A stretch of 64,000 bases of DNA, from the NCBI GenBank assembly GCA_028716845.1, contig JAQUPF010000001.1, positions 1 to 64,000 on the forward strand, in the 5' to 3' direction. A program made the translations under genes and the position numbers. The stretch comes from a bacterium. Its GTDB lineage: Bacteria; Auribacterota; Tritonobacteria; UBA1439. Positions 1 through 11,891 of the stretch are shown here, piece by piece (position 1 is the stretch's first letter; every line of letters begins with the position of its first letter). Below the pieces are notes generated by a model. The model did no database searches. It saw only the letters and a program-made list of their open reading frames with translations, and was not told where the DNA came from.

Positions 1-99
1 ATGACGCCTCCTTGATGTGGTGTTGCGGTGCTCGTGCACCGCTCCGATGGTGTTCTGACCACTCCATCTTACCGCATCATGGAGGTCTTTTGTCTCAGG
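1..99. other. left-edge stretch, no gene seen
   Basis: No open frame, tRNA or clear hairpin is visible here. It lies downstream of the leftward AT-rich gene pair and may hold that pair's terminator. Confidence 0.4.
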
Positions 100-816
100 C
101 TATTTGACTCCTATTTTGGACAAGACTGTTCTTTTATCTTTTCTTTGCGTTATAACTGCTATCTCATTTTCGAATTTGCGCATGAGTTGATCATTGGTAC
201 TAACTAAAACGTTAAGATCTTTATTGTCGAAAGTATTTCCACCGTGTTCGAAACTAGCTATCTGATCTTTGAGCATTTGTTGAGCAGTCTCTATAATTTT
301 CCTTAGATTTGCAACACGACCCTCGAATTCTATAGCAGAGATCCGAGGAGAAATGCCCCAGAAGGCACACGCATCATAAAAGGTGATATCTTCAAATCGA
401 TTATTTCTAAATTTCTCGACTGCTTTGCTCTTAAATAGTTTTATAAGTTGCCCTTTTAGCTCTCTCGCAAGCGCGACCTTTTTAACCGGCTCTCCGAATT
501 CGCTTTCTAAATATATCCTTGCTTGCGCACGTCCTGATTCTGTCAATTGATACATCTTGCTTCCAACTTTTTCAAGGAATCCTTTCTTGCGTATAGGTTT
601 TGAGCCCATTACCTCGGCAAAAACCCTGTTTGAGTCAGGATACATCAATTGACTATGTTCATTTTGATGCCCGGCTAATCCAAAAGTATCTGGAAATTTC
701 TTCCATGCTGACACGACTAAGTCCTCAGCTGAAAATGGCCGATTGCCATGTTGTTCCAATTCGAAAGCCGCTAGTAGCAGTTTATCAGAAACGCTTAATT
801 GCATGATTTCTATCAC
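100..816 (-). CDS. hypothetical protein partnered with the GHKL ATPase
   Basis: A 238-residue protein I do not recognise. The first ~110 residues look like a winged-helix or wHTH fold (a KLLLAAFELEQ helix, then 'FLEKVGSKMYQLTESGRAQA', which resembles a wing next to a recognition helix). The remainder is helical and charged, with a possible coiled coil around 160-230. Its start (GTG at 816, or ATG at 804) lies 3 bases after the stop of the upstream ATPase gene, so the two are almost certainly co-transcribed and probably act together. Base composition is AT-rich, unlike the rest of the window, which suggests transfer. A regulator or DNA-binding partner of the ATPase is inference only. Confidence 0.7.
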   Translation of the reverse strand: MIEIMQLSVSDKLLLAAFELEQHGNRPFSAEDLVVSAWKKFPDTFGLAGHQNEHSQLMYPDSNRVFAEVMGSKPIRKKGFLEKVGSKMYQLTESGRAQARIYLESEFGEPVKKVALARELKGQLIKLFKSKAVEKFRNNRFEDITFYDACAFWGISPRISAIEFEGRVANLRKIIETAQQMLKDQIASFEHGGNTFDNKDLNVLVSTNDQLMRKFENEIAVITQRKDKRTVLSKIGVK

Positions 817-819
817 TCT

Positions 820-3099
820 TTATTCTTTTGGCAATTCACCAGTTGCCAAAAAATCAAAAAGATCAGCAGATGCCGCTTCTTGTATTTCTGCCGCTTGTGC
901 TCCCCATTCCATTATCCAATCATTTACAGATAGCGACTCCTTTTCCTTCGGCCCATGAGTAAGTGCGATTTGAACAATTATATCGATGTAGCGTTCGAGG
1001 TGATACATTCTCCATTCTCGAGTTTGATATCCATATCCCTTATTATTATCGAGATATAAACGTGCCAAAGGAGATGCACTATTAATCCACCAAATATTTC
1101 TATCAACATCTTGAGGCCTTTGTGCAACCGGAGGATCTTCCCTGCTAAAATTAACCGCCTCCTTGTTTTCCGGATCTGAATGAATTCCAGAAACCAAGAC
1201 TAATGGTAAACTTTTACCGCGTTGATCTCCTTGACCACGACCTGTGCTAGGAGTAACTCTTACAATTGCCGGTCGTCGCGCGATACATTTGTCGTCGCCT
1301 GCGATTACTTCTGTATTTCCTTGCGAAAAGGCAAAAAGCAACCCGCTAGAGCTTACCCTCGCTATATTTGGATTGCTTTCTGTCCAAACGACGGATACCC
1401 CGCTAGATTGTCCTCCACCCGCCAATTGGCAGATGGCCTCAAGCTTGGAACGGCTACCAGCTGGCAACTGGACCTCTTCAGGAGAAATGACAATATCCTG
1501 GATACAAACTACCTCTAACGGCACCTTATTAGATCTAAGTCTCCCATCTAAGGTTTCTGCATATATAGATGTTCTGCCAATAGCGAAGGTGTTGACTATC
1601 ATTAAATCATCATCAACCATAGCTACATTAGTATCTTCACTAATCCAGCGGTAAGGTATAGGTCGAATATGACGTCCTGACGCATCATAGAATTTCAATG
1701 TCGGACGGAATGAAACGCCTATACCGGCTCTTTGATTAGATAATGTTAACTCAAGTTTTGCCGGCCTTCCGGTTGGCAAGGGCGCTGGTGCGGGCTTCTT
1801 AGTAGTTCCATCCCCTCTTCCCCATAGGCCTTGCATCAGTTCATTAATGAACCTATTCTTCCAGCGATCTAGAGCTTCGTTTATTTTACTAATAGCATCT
1901 TGTTCCTTTTGATCATAGCTCCTTCGATCTCGCGCCTCAAATTCCTTAGCATATGCCTGAATTTGCTTTGAAATAAAACTCTCAACAGCGCGAGACAACG
2001 GATTATTAGCCAATCTCGCTCTTTCGTTCTGCTTTAGTGGCTCAAGTGCATCGAGGGAGCATTCGCCATAGATACGATCACGATATGGCGACTGGATATC
2101 AAGTTCGCACACAGGAACGTATCCAATATAACCTGATTGAGCCTTATATATGACATTATGCCTTCCTTTCTTGCTCCATCGCATACTGACGTCTGAGGTT
2201 CTTAATGTTAATGTTCCAGAAGGCAATGCCCCGGATTGGGTAGTCGATATCTCTTGTTCTGTAAGCGGATCTTTTAGAGCATTTGGAATTTGTATAGTTC
2301 GTGGTTTCTCAGCTCCTGCTATTGGTTTGATCTCGGCTAATGAAAGGGACTTGCCACCATTGGCTGGTTCCCCGTTCACCATTACAAATACTTTGCACAT
2401 TTGAATAGTCTGGATCATTTGTGGGTGTTCTTGGAGATTGAGAATCAATGGAATCGGCGCAATGCGATTTTCGTAGCCTCGTGGGCTTGAGCCCGTGAGC
2501 AATGTAAAGCCATCGGCCATTGCTAGCCCCTTCAGAACCTCTTCTGGCAGATTTCGAATACTACAACCGACGCCTGCAAGAACCTTACTCAGTTCCTCTC
2601 GTAAATCACTAATAGGAAGATCACGACCTTTTTCCCGATCCGGGATATAGCCAAATCTGATTGAGCCGCCAGTCACACCATAACAACATTCCATGCCATT
2701 CTTTACAGTACGTAGCATCGAATAATCTTCAAACATCTGAACCATATAACATTTGCCACCATTGCCATGTCCCCCCTGAACAGATGCATTACGTACGCCG
2801 CATTGAGCAGCCTCCGGATCAGCCCATCTTCTAAAATATTGTTCGATCATAGCGCTTGTCATTCCTGAAAAATCTAAACAAGAAATCGACGCTTTTTGCT
2901 GCCTACGCCCAGAATCCAAAATAACTACGATAACTCTTTTGGCCTCAGGGGCATTTTCGCGAGAGTAAGCATCTGCGGAATTTTTTAGCCATTCTGGTAA
3001 ACCGTTTTCGTGAGACTGAAAAGCTCTGCAAATAAGTCGGATGGCGCCCTCTTCATGCATTTTTATGTCAACATCTGGTGTGTAAATTAGCTGAGTCAC
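820..3099 (-). CDS. GHKL (Hsp90/MutL/MORC-type) ATPase with Ig-like repeats
   Basis: I place the start at GTG 3099 (759 residues) because GGGAGG lies 5 bases upstream; a TTG at 3150 would add 17 residues with no such site. An N-terminal GHKL ATPase is indicated by the N-box EWLKNSADA (~36-44, matching ExxxNxxDA), a D-x-x-G-M box in 'LDFSGMT' (~75-81) and a glycine-rich lid 'GGHGNGGK' (~109-116). Helical region ~360-430 follows, then two Big_2-like immunoglobulin domains (~450-545 and ~547-630, with 'WISEDTNVA' and 'WTESNPNIARV'), and a conserved-looking tail with 'WWINSASPLA' and 'YHLERYIDIIV'. GHKL plus bacterial Ig repeats in a cytosolic-looking protein is unusual. No signal peptide is seen. 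AT-rich; beside a toxin-antitoxin module. A role in defence or DNA transactions is inference. Confidence 0.75.
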   Translation of the reverse strand: MTQLIYTPDVDIKMHEEGAIRLICRAFQSHENGLPEWLKNSADAYSRENAPEAKRVIVVILDSGRRQQKASISCLDFSGMTSAMIEQYFRRWADPEAAQCGVRNASVQGGHGNGGKCYMVQMFEDYSMLRTVKNGMECCYGVTGGSIRFGYIPDREKGRDLPISDLREELSKVLAGVGCSIRNLPEEVLKGLAMADGFTLLTGSSPRGYENRIAPIPLILNLQEHPQMIQTIQMCKVFVMVNGEPANGGKSLSLAEIKPIAGAEKPRTIQIPNALKDPLTEQEISTTQSGALPSGTLTLRTSDVSMRWSKKGRHNVIYKAQSGYIGYVPVCELDIQSPYRDRIYGECSLDALEPLKQNERARLANNPLSRAVESFISKQIQAYAKEFEARDRRSYDQKEQDAISKINEALDRWKNRFINELMQGLWGRGDGTTKKPAPAPLPTGRPAKLELTLSNQRAGIGVSFRPTLKFYDASGRHIRPIPYRWISEDTNVAMVDDDLMIVNTFAIGRTSIYAETLDGRLRSNKVPLEVVCIQDIVISPEEVQLPAGSRSKLEAICQLAGGGQSSGVSVVWTESNPNIARVSSSGLLFAFSQGNTEVIAGDDKCIARRPAIVRVTPSTGRGQGDQRGKSLPLVLVSGIHSDPENKEAVNFSREDPPVAQRPQDVDRNIWWINSASPLARLYLDNNKGYGYQTREWRMYHLERYIDIIVQIALTHGPKEKESLSVNDWIMEWGAQAAEIQEAASADLFDFLATGELPKE

Positions 3100-3167
3100 A
3101 ATTTCCTCCCAAGTTTTAGATGCGGCCTGTATTTCATGACCTGCACCCAATTGTATCTATTGGCATG

Positions 3168-3569
3168 TCAAAGCCAAAATACTCGTACCTCTTTTTCGAT
3201 TTGGTTAAAATCCGGATCTCCCGTTATCAATTCTACTCTCTTAATTTTTGCAAGAGCGGCGGCAAAGCAGTCAGTATAGGTCAGCTTAAGTTTGGATTTA
3301 AGCTCAGCCGCAACGCGGGCAAGGCCACAATCTACAGGGACTATTTCAATAGGCAGAGTGTCTATATCTTGCAGCGCTTGGTCAGCAGCCTTCTTGCCGG
3401 CGGTCTTATAAAGAATGTAATATATTTCGCCCCAACTCACTACGCTTAATAAAAGGCGATCCTCAGTATCCCGAGCATGCCTTATTAGATCAAATACTTT
3501 ATCAGATCCTGTTCCGTTCTCTAAAAAAGCAATTAAGGCGTATGAATCCAGTACCTTGCGCCTGCTCAC
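3168..3569 (-). CDS. vapC: PIN-domain toxin, VapC-like
   Basis: 133 residues, the usual VapC length. The PIN acidic set is present: D8 (LDSYAL), E48 (SWGEIYY), D100 (YTDCFAAA) and D118/D120 (TGDPDF). PIN toxins are Mg-dependent ribonucleases that cut specific RNAs when freed from their antitoxin. The start overlaps the end of the upstream antitoxin gene by 4 bases (ATGA type), the normal arrangement for co-expression. Its RNA target cannot be read from sequence. It sits in the AT-rich island directly upstream of the GHKL gene, which starts about 70 bases after this stop. Confidence 0.9.
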   Translation of the reverse strand: MSRRKVLDSYALIAFLENGTGSDKVFDLIRHARDTEDRLLLSVVSWGEIYYILYKTAGKKAADQALQDIDTLPIEIVPVDCGLARVAAELKSKLKLTYTDCFAAALAKIKRVELITGDPDFNQIEKEVRVFWL

Positions 3570-3796
3570 AGTTCGCGCTCCTTTTTCTTTTCCTCAAGAA
3601 GTACTTTCAGTGCTCTACCGCTTGTGCCAGTAGATCCCTTTAGGGATTCGATATAATCATCAGTCACAGGCCGGATAATAATATCGTTATCGCGTTCCAG
3701 AAAGCATACATGTGTTCCCCTCTTGATCTTATAGTGTTTCCTGATTCTCGATGGGATCACAATCTGGCCCTTTGTAGTTACTATGGCTGTCTTCAT
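3566..3796 (-). CDS. vapB: AbrB/MazE-type antitoxin, VapB-like
   Basis: 76 residues with the SpoVT/AbrB swapped-hairpin signature near the N-terminus ('VTTKGQIVIPSRIRK', then 'GTHVCFLERDNDIII'). The charged C-terminal helix (residues ~50-76) is the expected toxin-binding segment. Such proteins dimerise, bind their own promoter and neutralise the PIN partner encoded immediately downstream with a 4-base overlap. GGAGGACAAGATC upstream of the ATG gives a good ribosome binding site. Autoregulation is expected for the family; I see no clear operator in the short upstream region. Confidence 0.88.
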   Translation of the reverse strand: MKTAIVTTKGQIVIPSRIRKHYKIKRGTHVCFLERDNDIIIRPVTDDYIESLKGSTGTSGRALKVLLEEKKKEREL

Positions 3797-3883
3797 AGAT
3801 CTTGTCCTCCATTGTTCAGTTAAGTATAATTTATCTAAGAAAGTAAGTCAATATCTATTTGTCTTACTGTCATAGCGAAGTGA

Positions 3884-3922
3884 TAATGTCCCCTTTCGAG
3901 CGAAATAGAAATGTCCCCTATA
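3884..3922. repeat. probable terminal sequence of a dead insertion sequence
   Basis: Two closely spaced 'AATGTCCCC' units (around 3885-3893 and 3910-3918) precede the transposase remnant. Tandem short AATGTCC-type motifs are typical of ISNCY-type ends. No matching right end is visible. Confidence 0.5.
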
Positions 3923-3967
3923 ATGGCACCCGCGAAGGGGGTGCCAATGAGCGCGGGGACGCTGCGA

Positions 3968-4060
3968 ATGAGCCTCAAAGAGCGGGAGCGAATGCGGGTA
4001 ATGTCGCGGGTGAAGGAGAGGGGGATGAAGCTCACCGAGGCGAAGATGCTGCTTGAAATC
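3968..4060 (+). pseudogene. N-terminal remnant of an ISNCY-like transposase
   Basis: The frame from ATG 3968 reads 'MSLKERERMRVMSRVKERG' and then 'MKLTEAKMLLEI', resembling the N-terminal helix-turn-helix of ISNCY-family transposases (MSxKERERLxVLxxVxxGxLTxxEAAxLL). The homology stops near 4060, where unrelated sequence ('GGGGTCAGAACTCTACTATT') takes over. The catalytic part is absent, so the element is dead. It marks the right edge of the AT-rich island. Confidence 0.6.
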
Positions 4061-4269: not shown

Positions 4270-4345
4270 TGGCGACCCCACGGGGATTCGAACCCCGGTT
4301 GCCAGATCGAAAGTCTGGAGTCCTGGGCCTCTGGACGATGGGGTC
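4270..4345 (-). tRNA. tRNA-Glu (anticodon TTC)
   Basis: 76 bases with encoded CCA. Read on the minus strand: acceptor GACCCCA pairs with TGGGGTC, discriminator G, anticodon loop CTTTCGA on stem CCAGA/TCTGG, T arm GGTTCGAATCC. Flanked on both sides by R1 repeat ends in inverted orientation. Confidence 0.95.
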
Positions 4346-4346
4346 G

Positions 4347-4402
4347 CAACTACAGTTCAAAGTTCAAAGTTGAAAGTTCAAAGTATAAAGTATGAAGTAG
4401 AA
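4347..4402 (+). repeat. R1 repeat, left inverted end of the S23 unit
   Basis: Starts CAACTACAG immediately 5' of tRNA-Glu and continues as GTTCAAA/GTTGAAA units. It is the inverted counterpart of 5027-5064, so the four-helix-bundle gene at 4421-4825 lies between inverted R1 ends. Confidence 0.75.
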
Positions 4403-4420
4403 AGTGAGGAGAGTAAAGGG

Positions 4421-4825
4421 CTAAGCGAGGGGGGCATTCTTCCTGAGTTCCTCGTTCTCCACCGACTGGATGAGCTTGGCGAGCATCCGGCAGATCGCGG
4501 TGCAGTCCTCGCGCGCCCGCGCCCCCTCTCCCTCGCTCAACTGCCCCTGGCGGCACGCGAGCGTGATGCAGGGGATGCACTCCTTCGCCGAATCCAATGC
4601 GTAGGAGAAGTATTTGATCTTCTCCCTCCTCGATGCCTTCCCCGCTCCCTCCGCGATGTTCGTGCTTATGGAGAGCGCCGCCCGCTGGAGCTGGTCGACC
4701 AGTGAATTCCTGTACGCCGCGTCGAACGTCCTGCATCGATCGAAGACGAAATGCGCGAACTCAAGGGCGCGCTGGTAAACCTTCAATCGCTCGAAATCGA
4801 AATAGACCTTTCCCTCCTCCCGCAC
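4421..4825 (-). CDS. four-helix-bundle protein, S23 / 23S rRNA intervening-sequence family
   Basis: 134 residues. It matches the S23/IVS protein pattern: N-terminal 'FERLKVYQRALEFA', central 'QLQRAALSISTNIAEGAGK' (the hallmark SIxxNIAEG segment, ~50-66) and 'KYFSYALDSAKE' (~71-82). These small helical proteins were first found in insertions within 23S rRNA genes; their biochemical role is poorly known. Here the gene stands alone, with R1 repeats in inverted orientation on both sides (4347-4402 and 5027-5064), so gene plus repeats could be one mobile unit. No rRNA gene is present in the window. Confidence 0.9.
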   Translation of the reverse strand: MREEGKVYFDFERLKVYQRALEFAHFVFDRCRTFDAAYRNSLVDQLQRAALSISTNIAEGAGKASRREKIKYFSYALDSAKECIPCITLACRQGQLSEGEGARAREDCTAICRMLAKLIQSVENEELRKNAPLA

Positions 4826-5026: not shown

Positions 5027-5064
5027 ACTTTGAACTTTAGACTTTCAACTTTCAACTGTAGTGC
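5027..5064 (-). repeat. R1 repeat, right inverted end of the S23 unit
   Basis: CACTTTGAACTTTAGAC... ending CAACTGTAGTG. Its reverse complement aligns with 4347-4385 over nearly the whole length. Confidence 0.7.
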
Positions 5065-5078
5065 TGGTGAGGGCGGGA
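5046..5078. repeat. 33-bp direct repeat including the last 14 bases of tRNA-Lys
   Basis: Identical to 7151-7183 except for one base (5063 G versus 7168 A). Bases 5065-5078 copy the tRNA-Lys 3' end, CCA included; beyond that the two loci diverge. The 2.1 kb in between holds the protease gene. It looks like an attachment-site-type duplication, but no integrase is present. Confidence 0.65.
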
Positions 5079-5141
5079 CGAGCCGATCCAACTCTTTTCA
5101 ACAGAAAGTGAAAACCAAACAAGTTCGGCGACGGGGCATCA

Positions 5142-6866
5142 TTATACAGGGCACTGCTGCCGCACCACAGTCCCTTTTAAGCACGTATCGATGCGCGAGC
5201 GAGGGGAGGCGGCGGCCGCCGAGCCGGCAGCCCTCACCGCGATGGCCTTCCGGTCGATCGTGATGAGGTCCGGCGTGTCGAAGCGGAGATCCTCCAGGCG
5301 CCCCACCGTCGGCAACCTGCCGGCGGACGTCGTGACGAGGTAGAGCGTCGTCGTCCCCCGGATGGAGGCGGGACAGGGCAGTTCCCGCAGCACCGTCATC
5401 TCGAACGGCGCGTCGAGCCGTTTGACATCCCGCGCCGCGGGGCGGATCCCGGAAACGATACGGCCATCCAGCATGATGCTGAAGATTCCGGCAGGCGTGT
5501 CCGCCATGATGTAGGCATCGAACGCCGCCCAGATCGGGATCGCGGCACGAACGCCCACCGTGATCCGGTCGCCCGGACTGAACGCCTCGCCGCTCACGAC
5601 AAGTTCCACGCTGGGGAAGGAAGTCGGCGTGATGGTTGGGGAAGGGGTCAGTGTGGGCGTCGGAATGCTCGTCGGGGTCTCCGTGGGCGTCGGCGAGGGC
5701 GTCGGCGAGGGCGTCGGCGTATAAGTCGCCGTTGCCGTTGGTGTCGGCGTCGGCGTCCCCGTCGGCGTGATGGTCGGAACCACTGTCTGAATGGCGACCA
5801 TTGATTGATGGCAATCCATCATCGCGCTGCTGTTACTCACCCGCAGCGACACCTCATAATCTCCGACTTGGGTGTAACTGTATACCGGATTCAACTCAAA
5901 ACCCACATTTCCGTCTCCAAACGTCCAGTAGTTGCGCACATTATCATTCGAACTGTTGGTAAAGGTTGCCGTTTGATGCTCTATCGATACGGAGAAATTC
6001 GCATCGGGCTGGGACCCAGCTGGCGGTAAATTCACTACGTCACAATCGGGATAATGCTGGAAAAGGCCAACCCCCTCGCACATGAATTGGTTGGAACATA
6101 TGGATTGGAGTTCGGTCGTCAGGAATCCCCATGGCGAATCCGAAAGAGGGGCATGGTCGGGAAAATTCCAGTGCGTGGCCATGATGCTGTGGTTGCCGTA
6201 TGGGTCGGAGGGATGCGGCAATTGCAGGATGTGCCCAATCTCATGCGCATACGCTCCCTCCGGTGTGCAGGGCCAGGCGGCCACCCCTACGCCTCCGGGG
6301 CACTCACCATCAGAGTATTCGGGATTGTTCAACTCGGGAAACAGCTCTATGCCGAGGAGCGCTATCCCGCAGTTCCCCTCGCATCCCCAAGCGGCACCCG
6401 CCCACCAGCCAGCACCGTGCACCCATAGTACCGTGGCGATTCCCGGCGCCCAAATGGGGAGCCCTTTGCTGCTCATCTCGCCGAGAAGAGAACCCCACCA
6501 ACTTCCGTTCTCCACATAGTACTCCCGGGTCTGATCCGCATAATAGACGTCCACGACTTCGGGATACTCAAGGTCCCACGTCATCCCGCCCGTCGCACAC
6601 TGGTACCAGGCCCGGACATGCATCGTGGCCTGGATCACACGCTGATATGCATTTTCATCGTATGGGACATCGGTGGGAAGCACATAGAACACGGCCAGCG
6701 TGTAATTCAACGTCTCATGAGATGAAAAGGGGGAAGCGAGATCGTCGGGAACCGGCAAGCTGCCGTACCGGCACCATGCCCCAGGATACTCCTGTATATT
6801 CGCCGGCCCCGAAACACCGTAGGCGGGAATCGCGATTGCAGCCCCCAACGCCAGCACGATTCGCAT
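5142..6866 (-). CDS. secreted metzincin-like protease with PKD domain and Thr/Pro linker
   Basis: Start at ATG 6866, preceded by AGGAG at 7-base spacing; it opens directly with a signal peptide ('MRIVLALGAAIAIPAYG'), while the upstream ATG at 6953 adds 29 residues with no signal. About 574 residues. Zinc site 'HEIGHILQLPH' (HExxHxxxxxH) near residue 210 marks a metzincin-type metalloprotease. A PKD domain follows ('YWTFGDGNVG' ... 'VSLRVSN', ~310-355), then a long TPTPTPT-rich linker (~370-420) and a C-terminal domain of ~150 residues that I cannot name. Family knowledge predicts an exported, possibly cell-surface, protease. Its GC content is lower than the neighbouring operon. It lies between two copies of the tRNA-Lys 3' end, which suggests acquisition. 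Confidence 0.8.
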   Translation of the reverse strand: MRIVLALGAAIAIPAYGVSGPANIQEYPGAWCRYGSLPVPDDLASPFSSHETLNYTLAVFYVLPTDVPYDENAYQRVIQATMHVRAWYQCATGGMTWDLEYPEVVDVYYADQTREYYVENGSWWGSLLGEMSSKGLPIWAPGIATVLWVHGAGWWAGAAWGCEGNCGIALLGIELFPELNNPEYSDGECPGGVGVAAWPCTPEGAYAHEIGHILQLPHPSDPYGNHSIMATHWNFPDHAPLSDSPWGFLTTELQSICSNQFMCEGVGLFQHYPDCDVVNLPPAGSQPDANFSVSIEHQTATFTNSSNDNVRNYWTFGDGNVGFELNPVYSYTQVGDYEVSLRVSNSSAMMDCHQSMVAIQTVVPTITPTGTPTPTPTATATYTPTPSPTPSPTPTETPTSIPTPTLTPSPTITPTSFPSVELVVSGEAFSPGDRITVGVRAAIPIWAAFDAYIMADTPAGIFSIMLDGRIVSGIRPAARDVKRLDAPFEMTVLRELPCPASIRGTTTLYLVTTSAGRLPTVGRLEDLRFDTPDLITIDRKAIAVRAAGSAAAASPRSRIDTCLKGTVVRQQCPV

Positions 6867-6977
6867 GGGCTTCTCCTGCCAGGGGAAAGTGCGAGCCTTC
6901 CCTCTGCGCCCGATGTCTTCGGGAACTACGTATGCTGCTTCCTTCTGCATCAATGATGCATGATTTGGGTAATTTAA

Positions 6978-7244: not shown

Positions 7245-7443
7245 ACTACAGTTCAAAGTTAAAAGTTGATAGTCGAAAGTCAAAAGACGCGTGAAGCACG
7301 ATCGCGGCTTGCTTCCCCTGCCCGGTGCTTCCGACTACGCACCCGGAACTATGAACTGATCGCCCCGCCTCCGGCTGTTTCCACTGGCTGTTTTCACTGG
7401 CTGTTTTCACTTTAAACTTTGAACTTTCAACTTTGAACTGTAG
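7245..7443. mobile_element. R1-bounded miniature element, no gene
   Basis: About 199 bases between inverted R1 ends: ACTACAGTTCAAAGTT at the left and the complement of AACTACAGTTCAAAGTTG at the right. The interior shares TGCxTCCGxxTxCGxACCxGGAAC and TGAACxGATxG spacing with the interior of the S23 unit (4967-5010), as a deletion derivative would. It lies between tRNA-Lys and frr. Confidence 0.55.
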
Positions 7444-11480: not shown

Positions 11481-11891
11481 TCAGGGCCGAGGAGCGCGGG
11501 GCGGCAGCTCCACCGTCGTCAGGCGGATGCCGGCCCGGCGGCATGCCCGCCGGATGGCCGCGAGGTACGGCCGGAGCCGCGGGTTCGCGCGCGCGGACTC
11601 GTGGAAGAAGCGGACGGAGCGGAACCCCCTCCTCCGCAGAGAGTCGGTGATCCGCGGCACCAGCGCCGGGACCTCCTCCGCCCGGAGGAGGTGGTCGTAG
11701 TACGGGATCCTCCTCCACGGGCCGATGAGGCCGAACTCCCCCGAGAGGATGGCGAAGGCCGCCCCCGCGCGCCTGCTCTCCCGGTGGACGGCGCGTATCC
11801 TCGGCGACGCGTACCGCCGGACCGCCGGCAGCATGGCCGGCCGCCGCCGCTTCCGCGCCGAGCAGTACGTGCAGAACAGCACCCTCTTCAC
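11481..11891 (-). CDS. hypothetical protein, DUF6884-like
   Basis: 136 residues, basic. The N-terminus 'VLFCTYCSARKRRRPAMLPA' followed by 'YASPRIRAVH' and 'FAILSGEFGLIGPW' resembles small proteins (DUF6884-like) with a pattern of S/C-x-x-K near the start, a YxS motif and 'ILSAKYGLV'. Function unknown; a link to nucleoside or base chemistry has been suggested for relatives but cannot be shown here. It lies about 10 bases after the preceding minus-strand gene's stop. Runs of Arg/Pro may reflect high GC. Confidence 0.6.
   Translation of the reverse strand: MKRVLFCTYCSARKRRRPAMLPAVRRYASPRIRAVHRESRRAGAAFAILSGEFGLIGPWRRIPYYDHLLRAEEVPALVPRITDSLRRRGFRSVRFFHESARANPRLRPYLAAIRRACRRAGIRLTTVELPPRAPRP

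Follow-up and report, generated by a model that had tools for sequence, protein, structure and literature searches.

A widespread GHKL-S5 ATPase and its winged-helix partner, probably part of a mobile, methyltransferase-linked defence operon

A GHKL-S5 ATPase and a small winged-helix protein, encoded side by side at one end of the DNA analysed here, are a real and widespread module which has no existing name, and we consider it probable that their locus is part of a mobile multi-gene defence operon resembling restriction-modification. The ATPase is probably a working part of such an operon, because it is almost always accompanied by the small partner and usually by a DNA methyltransferase. The window, that is, the whole stretch of 64,000 nucleotides under study, is the start of one contig (C1) of a 2.68-Mb genome in 36 contigs. 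The initial annotation had described a two-gene module matching no named system; the near-constant small partner holds good, but the module is more than a pair, as a DNA methyltransferase belongs with the two genes. The absence of a name also holds: neither PADLOC nor NCBIfam has a model for the pair, Pfam has none either, the window proteins give no PADLOC match and their relatives give only weak scattered ones, and a literature search covering few subscription papers and no preprints found no paper that names an ATPase and winged-helix pair.

Both genes lie on the minus strand at the coordinates first annotated, and the partner gene indeed starts 3 bases past the ATPase stop (Table 1). Homologues share the start position of the 759-aa frame (L071 begins with MTQLNYTPDDDVK... 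and the window protein with VTQLIYTPDVDIK...), so a longer ORF reaching a TTG codon at 3150 is probably not the true start.

Table 1. Positions of the features in the window and of selected genes in related loci
Feature	Position	Strand	Remarks
Transposon left end	1..127	-	terminal repeat AGTCTTGTCCAAAATA
Putative target-site duplication	129..138	-	GATAAAAGAA (GATGAAAGAA on C24), 9/10 identical
Partner gene	100..816	-	238 aa as read; winged helix (about 1-111) and helical C-terminal part
GHKL-S5 ATPase gene	820..3099	-	759 aa, GTG start at 3099
Conserved C-terminal domain	832..1212	-	residues about 630-756; P632, D642-P643, W671-I672-N673
Second Ig-like domain, Big_2	1252..1491	-	residues about 537-616; Pfam PF02368 4e-8, AlphaFold
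First Ig-like domain	1492..1764	-	residues about 446-536; AlphaFold secondary structure
GHKL + S5 ATPase module	1921..3060	-	residues 14-393, takes in start of long helix; AlphaFold model, VIA alignment, invariant motifs
VapC-like PIN-domain toxin gene	3168..3569	-	68 bp upstream of ATPase gene; Pfam PIN 2.7e-19
VapB/AbrB-like antitoxin gene	3566..3796	-	overlaps vapC
tRNA-Glu(TTC)	4270..4345	-	adjoins edge of AT-rich stretch
Own-genome methyltransferase gene	C24:318-1256
75-aa gene, examples	L018:370-597, L053:9673-9900, L083:5828-6070
Clade II third gene, examples	L021:7409-9130, L037:11961-13502, L060:11866-12900		domains combined in one protein

The GHKL signatures read from the window protein are all present, namely the N-box EWLKNSADA (E36, N40), the G1 box LDFSGM (D76, G79) and the glycine-rich loop GGHGNGGK (109-116), and none of E36, N40, D76, G79, GHGNGGK and R360 varies among the 46 relatives aligned. 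Structure prediction, which had been proposed as a check, also gives a GHKL fold: the AlphaFold2 model (mean pLDDT 86.5, from an alignment of 46 sequences) consists of the GHKL+S5 module, a long helix, two Ig domains and a C-terminal domain, and in the fold search with VIA (Foldseek was run too) residues 14-393 matched MORC3 with Z 19.3 at 3.8 Å over 305 residues, Hsp90 with Z 19.6, MORC2 with Z 17.9 and SMCHD1 with Z 17.4. The N-box Asn and Glu, the G1 DxxG, the glycine-rich loop and the Bergerat fold place the protein in the GHKL superfamily, with a shape akin to MORC, MutL and Hsp90. The tie of Hsp90 with MORC3 in this comparison would suit an Hsp90-like chaperone with Ig domains and a role unrelated to DNA, but the constant association with a winged-helix protein and with DNA methyltransferases makes such a chaperone highly improbable.

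Pfam recognizes little of the family, HATPase_c_3 matching 5 of 47 ATPase members weakly and Big_2 matching 9 of 47, and the family profile matched no PDB sequence. The two Ig domains annotated at the outset are present in the window protein; by the alignment, in which their positions are occupied in roughly half of the relatives or fewer, they do not define the wider family but are an insert that its members may lack. The tail, which had looked conserved, is indeed so: positions of the C-terminal domain are occupied in about 95% of 65 relatives, and N673 is invariant in the 46 aligned ones. The family alignment has no conserved E-D-ExK in this domain, and no histidine after residue 225 is conserved in more than 50% of members, a level exceeded only by those at 30, 111 and 225.

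The model of the partner reached a mean pLDDT of 89.9. Its residues 1-111 form a winged helix that matches AF1382 (Z 10.4), with MukF and MarR types at about 9, and the VIA matches are generic winged helices, MukF and Wadjet JetB among them. Foldseek gave no confident match for the whole chain, and no catalytic motif was seen in the protein.

The first homologue was met on an Ensifer conjugative plasmid, where the ATPase is 24-25% and the partner 28-30% identical to those of the window. In total 73 homologous loci were collected, among them, with the Ensifer-derived alignment, 66 from GTDB contigs and 6 from IMG/VR, and they come from Planctomycetota, Patescibacteria, Pelagibacteraceae, Chloroflexota, Ignavibacteriota, Acidobacteriota, Myxococcota and other taxa. 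A partner homologue adjoins the ATPase on the same strand in 63 of the 73 loci; of the remaining 10, a contig end truncates eight, and two (L051 and L057) are truly without a partner. The linkage also holds when searched from the side of the partner, as every full-length partner match in 20 whole genomes is a known ATPase pair. When 287 genomes of one phylum were sampled irrespective of the presence of the ATPase, three new partner matches appeared, two of them next to a GHKL gene with a 75-aa gene upstream (G219 and G211) and the third (L084) a lone winged-helix match. In G211 and at a second site of G061 the partner type is paired with a different, distant GHKL protein. This second GHKL family, recognized by HATPase_c_3, occurs at L083:3277-5184 and L086:1580-3463, and the protein paired with it has the same winged helix (405 aa in L086).

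The tree splits the ATPase family into two clades (SH-aLRT 100), as built by a quick method with a midpoint root and some long branches. Clade I, to which the window belongs, has the order ATPase then partner, with Ig domains present; clade II has the order partner then ATPase, with Ig domains mostly absent. Each clade keeps its own kind of methyltransferase. In clade I it is a single N6_N4 subfamily (Pfam N6_N4 match 1.3e-35), found in 18 loci at no less than 230 bits, against no more than 63 bits in clade II; clade II has a C5 methyltransferase in 20 loci, Vsr in 15, and in 32 a third gene which, in the six representatives read, carries sigma-r4 and alphaCTD, HARE-HTH or DnaA_C domains. Since many contigs are short, these counts are lower bounds, and they are drawn from related loci which are not independent. 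The neighbour clusters CL5 and CL7, once taken as a candidate helicase or nuclease, were rejected as such, for their Pfam domains are sigma-r4, alphaCTD, HARE-HTH and DnaA_C. Two clade II copies (L064 and L065) lie about 14 kb apart on the actinomycetotal contig JADDQT010000001.1 with identical ATPases and equal partner scores, and are either a recent duplication or an assembly error.

Genes of the restriction type recur around the family. The fullest close relative, L008, carries VapB-VapC-ATPase-partner-methyltransferase-HNH-HNH_2 on one strand, McrB-like AAA_5 genes lie near L002 and L070, and Mrr_N is also found among the neighbours. The endonuclease candidates are thus the HNH genes of L008, the McrB-like genes and the Vsr of 15 clade II loci; none is constant in clade I, and no conserved nuclease was found among the clade I loci. 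In L004, which at 64% ranks among the closest cellular relatives, the 4 kb downstream contain no methyltransferase. Taken together, the homologues are linked to the small partner and to modification and restriction genes, which answers the check on co-occurrence proposed with the initial annotation.

In the window itself no methyltransferase follows the partner. The window begins at a contig end, so the sequence beyond base 1 lies on other contigs, and because the contig ends in a transposon the methyltransferase of this locus had been overlooked. The left end of the transposon is also present at contigs C11, C12 and C19, an exact right end was found on C24 only, and the two ends, seemingly of one element, carry the terminal inverted repeats AGTCTTGTCCAAAATA and AGTGCTGTCCAAAATA. 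On C24, 12 bases from the transposon end, lies a methyltransferase gene whose product shares 79% identity with the L071 methyltransferase. L071 is the closest relative (67%), and its order is ATPase-partner-methyltransferase with an ATGA overlap. Joining the C1 and C24 flanks restores a partner end ...ITQRKDERI with its stop and ATGA; the L071 counterpart reads ...SERRDERKI with its stop and ATGA. We therefore strongly infer that C1 and C24 were joined across one transposon, from the order of the genes, the ends of the transposon and one near-repeat (the putative target-site duplication); it is kept as an inference because the left end is shared with three other contigs. A methyltransferase in the operon, as a restriction-modification-like system requires, is usual in the family as described, and for the window it would be reached across the transposon. 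Downstream of this gene on C24 (L077:1276-4084), AT-rich DNA encodes a 137-aa protein of winged-helix-like appearance and a 243-aa protein with the motifs CxxC...SHxxP...CxxC, both judged by eye, and then a 152-aa protein with a weak HEPN match.

The transposon overwrites the end of the partner, whose last 8 residues as read, VLSKIGVK, are transposon-derived, and it stands between partner and methyltransferase, so the operon here may be impaired. The pair in this genome could also be a dead relic left by the insertion, which is compatible with a defence operon for the family as a whole. The swapped residues and the split operon speak for decay, but the ATPase gene keeps an uninterrupted full-length frame and all its motifs, no more than the last few partner residues are changed, and many relatives have a short partner tail or none; we regard a relic as possible but rather doubtful.

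The initial annotation had placed VapBC beside the pair, and the PIN-domain match confirms it; the acidic residues D-E-D-D of VapC are kept on inspection of the sequences, so that toxin and antitoxin genes qualify as VapBC. One family of VapBC stands directly upstream on the same strand in 11 loci (the window and 10 others), and no VapC of this family was found elsewhere in the 1.17 Mb of loci. In 34 other loci the slot is taken, never together with VapBC, by a 75-aa protein. Its conserved family, with members of about 75 aa, has no match in Pfam and also adjoins the different GHKL gene; a search of the window's own genome, run without a positive control, did not find the protein. VapBC is spread over three separate branches of the tree, and the VapC proteins of L008 and L048 are 70% identical while their ATPases are 30% identical, so the loci have acquired or swapped VapBC more than once. 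The idea that VapBC is an obligate part of the system was rejected, its similarity being independent of that of the ATPase and a VapC at 66% being found without the ATPase. The latter is at L085:5218-6888 in a genome of the same family (G021), where the VapC (66% to the window's) is followed by a partner-like fragment and an intact ATPase gene is missing; this may be the remnant of a related system.

The recurrence of VapBC in one slot, the lack of a conserved nuclease in clade I, and the resemblance of the clade II domains sigma-r4, alphaCTD, HARE-HTH and DnaA_C to binders of promoters or origins and not to nucleases could also be read in another way, namely as a module for maintenance of the element or for epigenetic control, where methyltransferase, MORC-like ATPase and DNA-binding partner would silence or organise their own element, VapBC makes it addictive, and defence is secondary or absent. 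The Vsr, HNH, McrB-like and Mrr_N neighbours and the patchy spread over many phyla suit conflict systems better, and we hold this maintenance role to be unlikely.

The island of AT-rich DNA noted earlier is borne out, with a GC content of 41-45% over bases 1-4000 versus about 70% across most of the remaining window. This DNA is possibly mobile, and the tRNA-Glu gene is a possible insertion site of the island; a search of C24 at word size 11 found no repeat of the tRNA end. Next to the tRNA gene, on the minus strand, a 134-aa ORF (4421-4825) shows likeness to the four-helix-bundle IVS protein family, and ORFs related to it are present in L041 and L060 (cluster 15). Further on, reading of a 603-aa ORF (5142-6953, minus strand) shows an AHEIGH zinc-protease motif and, ahead of a TP-rich linker, a PKD-like stretch. 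Intergenic stretches resembling TTTGAACTTTCAACTTTGAACT, again by reading, recur at 4350-4440, 5030-5090, 7246-7430 and 11590-11620 as putative dispersed repeats, in which ORFs end with, for example, LSTLNFEL or LKVESLKFKV.

Association with mobile elements raises the question of whether the module serves the phage or plasmid itself, as a weapon for superinfection exclusion or a shield of its carrier against host restriction, the bacterial copies being element remains. L071 adjoins a phage portal gene, L073 adjoins phage tail genes, a conjugative plasmid carries the Ensifer copy, and the AT-rich DNA lies beside a tRNA gene. Nevertheless, 66 of 72 loci are on bacterial genome contigs and 6 of 72 are viral, and a search of 50,697 phage records gave no match, which leaves such a weapon quite unlikely.

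For the preferred defence operon, the order would be VapBC or the 75-aa protein, the GHKL ATPase, the winged-helix partner and a DNA N4/N6 methyltransferase, together with variable extra nucleases. Judging from its adjacency, the methyltransferase would mark the cell's own DNA, and the partner, given the winged helix in its model, may bind DNA or read its state. ATP-driven dimerisation of the GHKL-S5 module would, by analogy, close a clamp of the MutL/MORC type on unmarked incoming DNA, which might then recruit a nuclease or block replication or transcription. The Ig domains and the conserved C-terminal domain may provide a spacer and a docking surface for the partner, and VapBC may be a recurrent add-on, either an addiction module or a back-up. 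Eukaryotic MORCs silence transposons, and a variant of methylation-guided defence free of nucleases can also be envisaged, in which a MORC-like clamp would trap or compact unmarked invader DNA, the clade II proteins with sigma-r4, alphaCTD and DnaA_C, as readers of promoters and origins resembling those of the host, would aim the clamp at promoters or origins of the invader, and VapC or the 75-aa protein would be a fail-safe; we think this variant fairly unlikely.

How MORC proteins act on DNA is still debated, and the family offers a testable bacterial relative with a small near-constant set of partners, in which the methyltransferase could supply self-recognition. It also adds a widespread candidate defence module undetected by the PADLOC version searched, which occurs in Patescibacteria and Pelagibacter too, groups whose defences are little known.

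Regarding known systems, the family resembles HEF_HK and Response_reg_2 (PF19191/PF19192, PMC8011034) in being a two-gene arrangement of GHKL protein and partner beside a C5 methyltransferase and Vsr, as in clade II, but here the partner is a winged helix and not a receiver domain, and neither Pfam model matched the ATPase or the partner. BREX and similar methylation-guided defence lacking an evident nuclease (PMC9122589) share with clade I a methyltransferase and an ATPase without conserved nuclease, whereas the proteins annotated among the recurrent neighbours of this family are different ones. Anti-phage defence by a GHKL ATPase has been established experimentally for VcSduA (Shedu type I-D, paraMORC3; PMC12137116), which differs in its C-terminal DUF4263 nuclease of the PD-(D/E)xK kind, absent from the Pfam matches of 47 members here. 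The initial annotation had suggested an ATPase of the MORC/MutL type. The fold of the module is indeed like that of prokaryotic and eukaryotic MORC, but the MORC S5 motif GhXhhpXXRhl is found in 0 of 65 family members, and among described ATPases the family comes closest to the paraMORC group associated with restriction-modification, paraMORC1-5, for which DNA looping was proposed as the mode of action (Iyer, Abhiman, Aravind 2008, PMC2292703). The family differs from these in that no SFII helicase was seen among its recurrent neighbour clusters and no nuclease or conserved HxH was found. The 47 ATPase members gave no Pfam match to TIR, which in paraMORC4 is a C-terminal domain or a gene beside the ATPase (neighbours were scanned in part), the HxH signature of paraMORC5 is absent from the C-terminal domain, and the ExxxH of paraMORC2 is not apparent, with conserved histidines confined to the three positions given above. 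It has instead a C-terminal domain of its own, the near-constant winged-helix partner and optional Ig domains. In common with paraMORC1-5 (PMC2292703), it consists of GHKL+S5 ATPases without the MORC S5 motif, distributed sporadically over phyla, whose genes adjoin DNA methyltransferases, Vsr and nucleases. In these neighbourhoods of modification and restriction, as in its motifs, the family shows the general features of paraMORCs and, compared by description and motifs, fits the loose paraMORC group.
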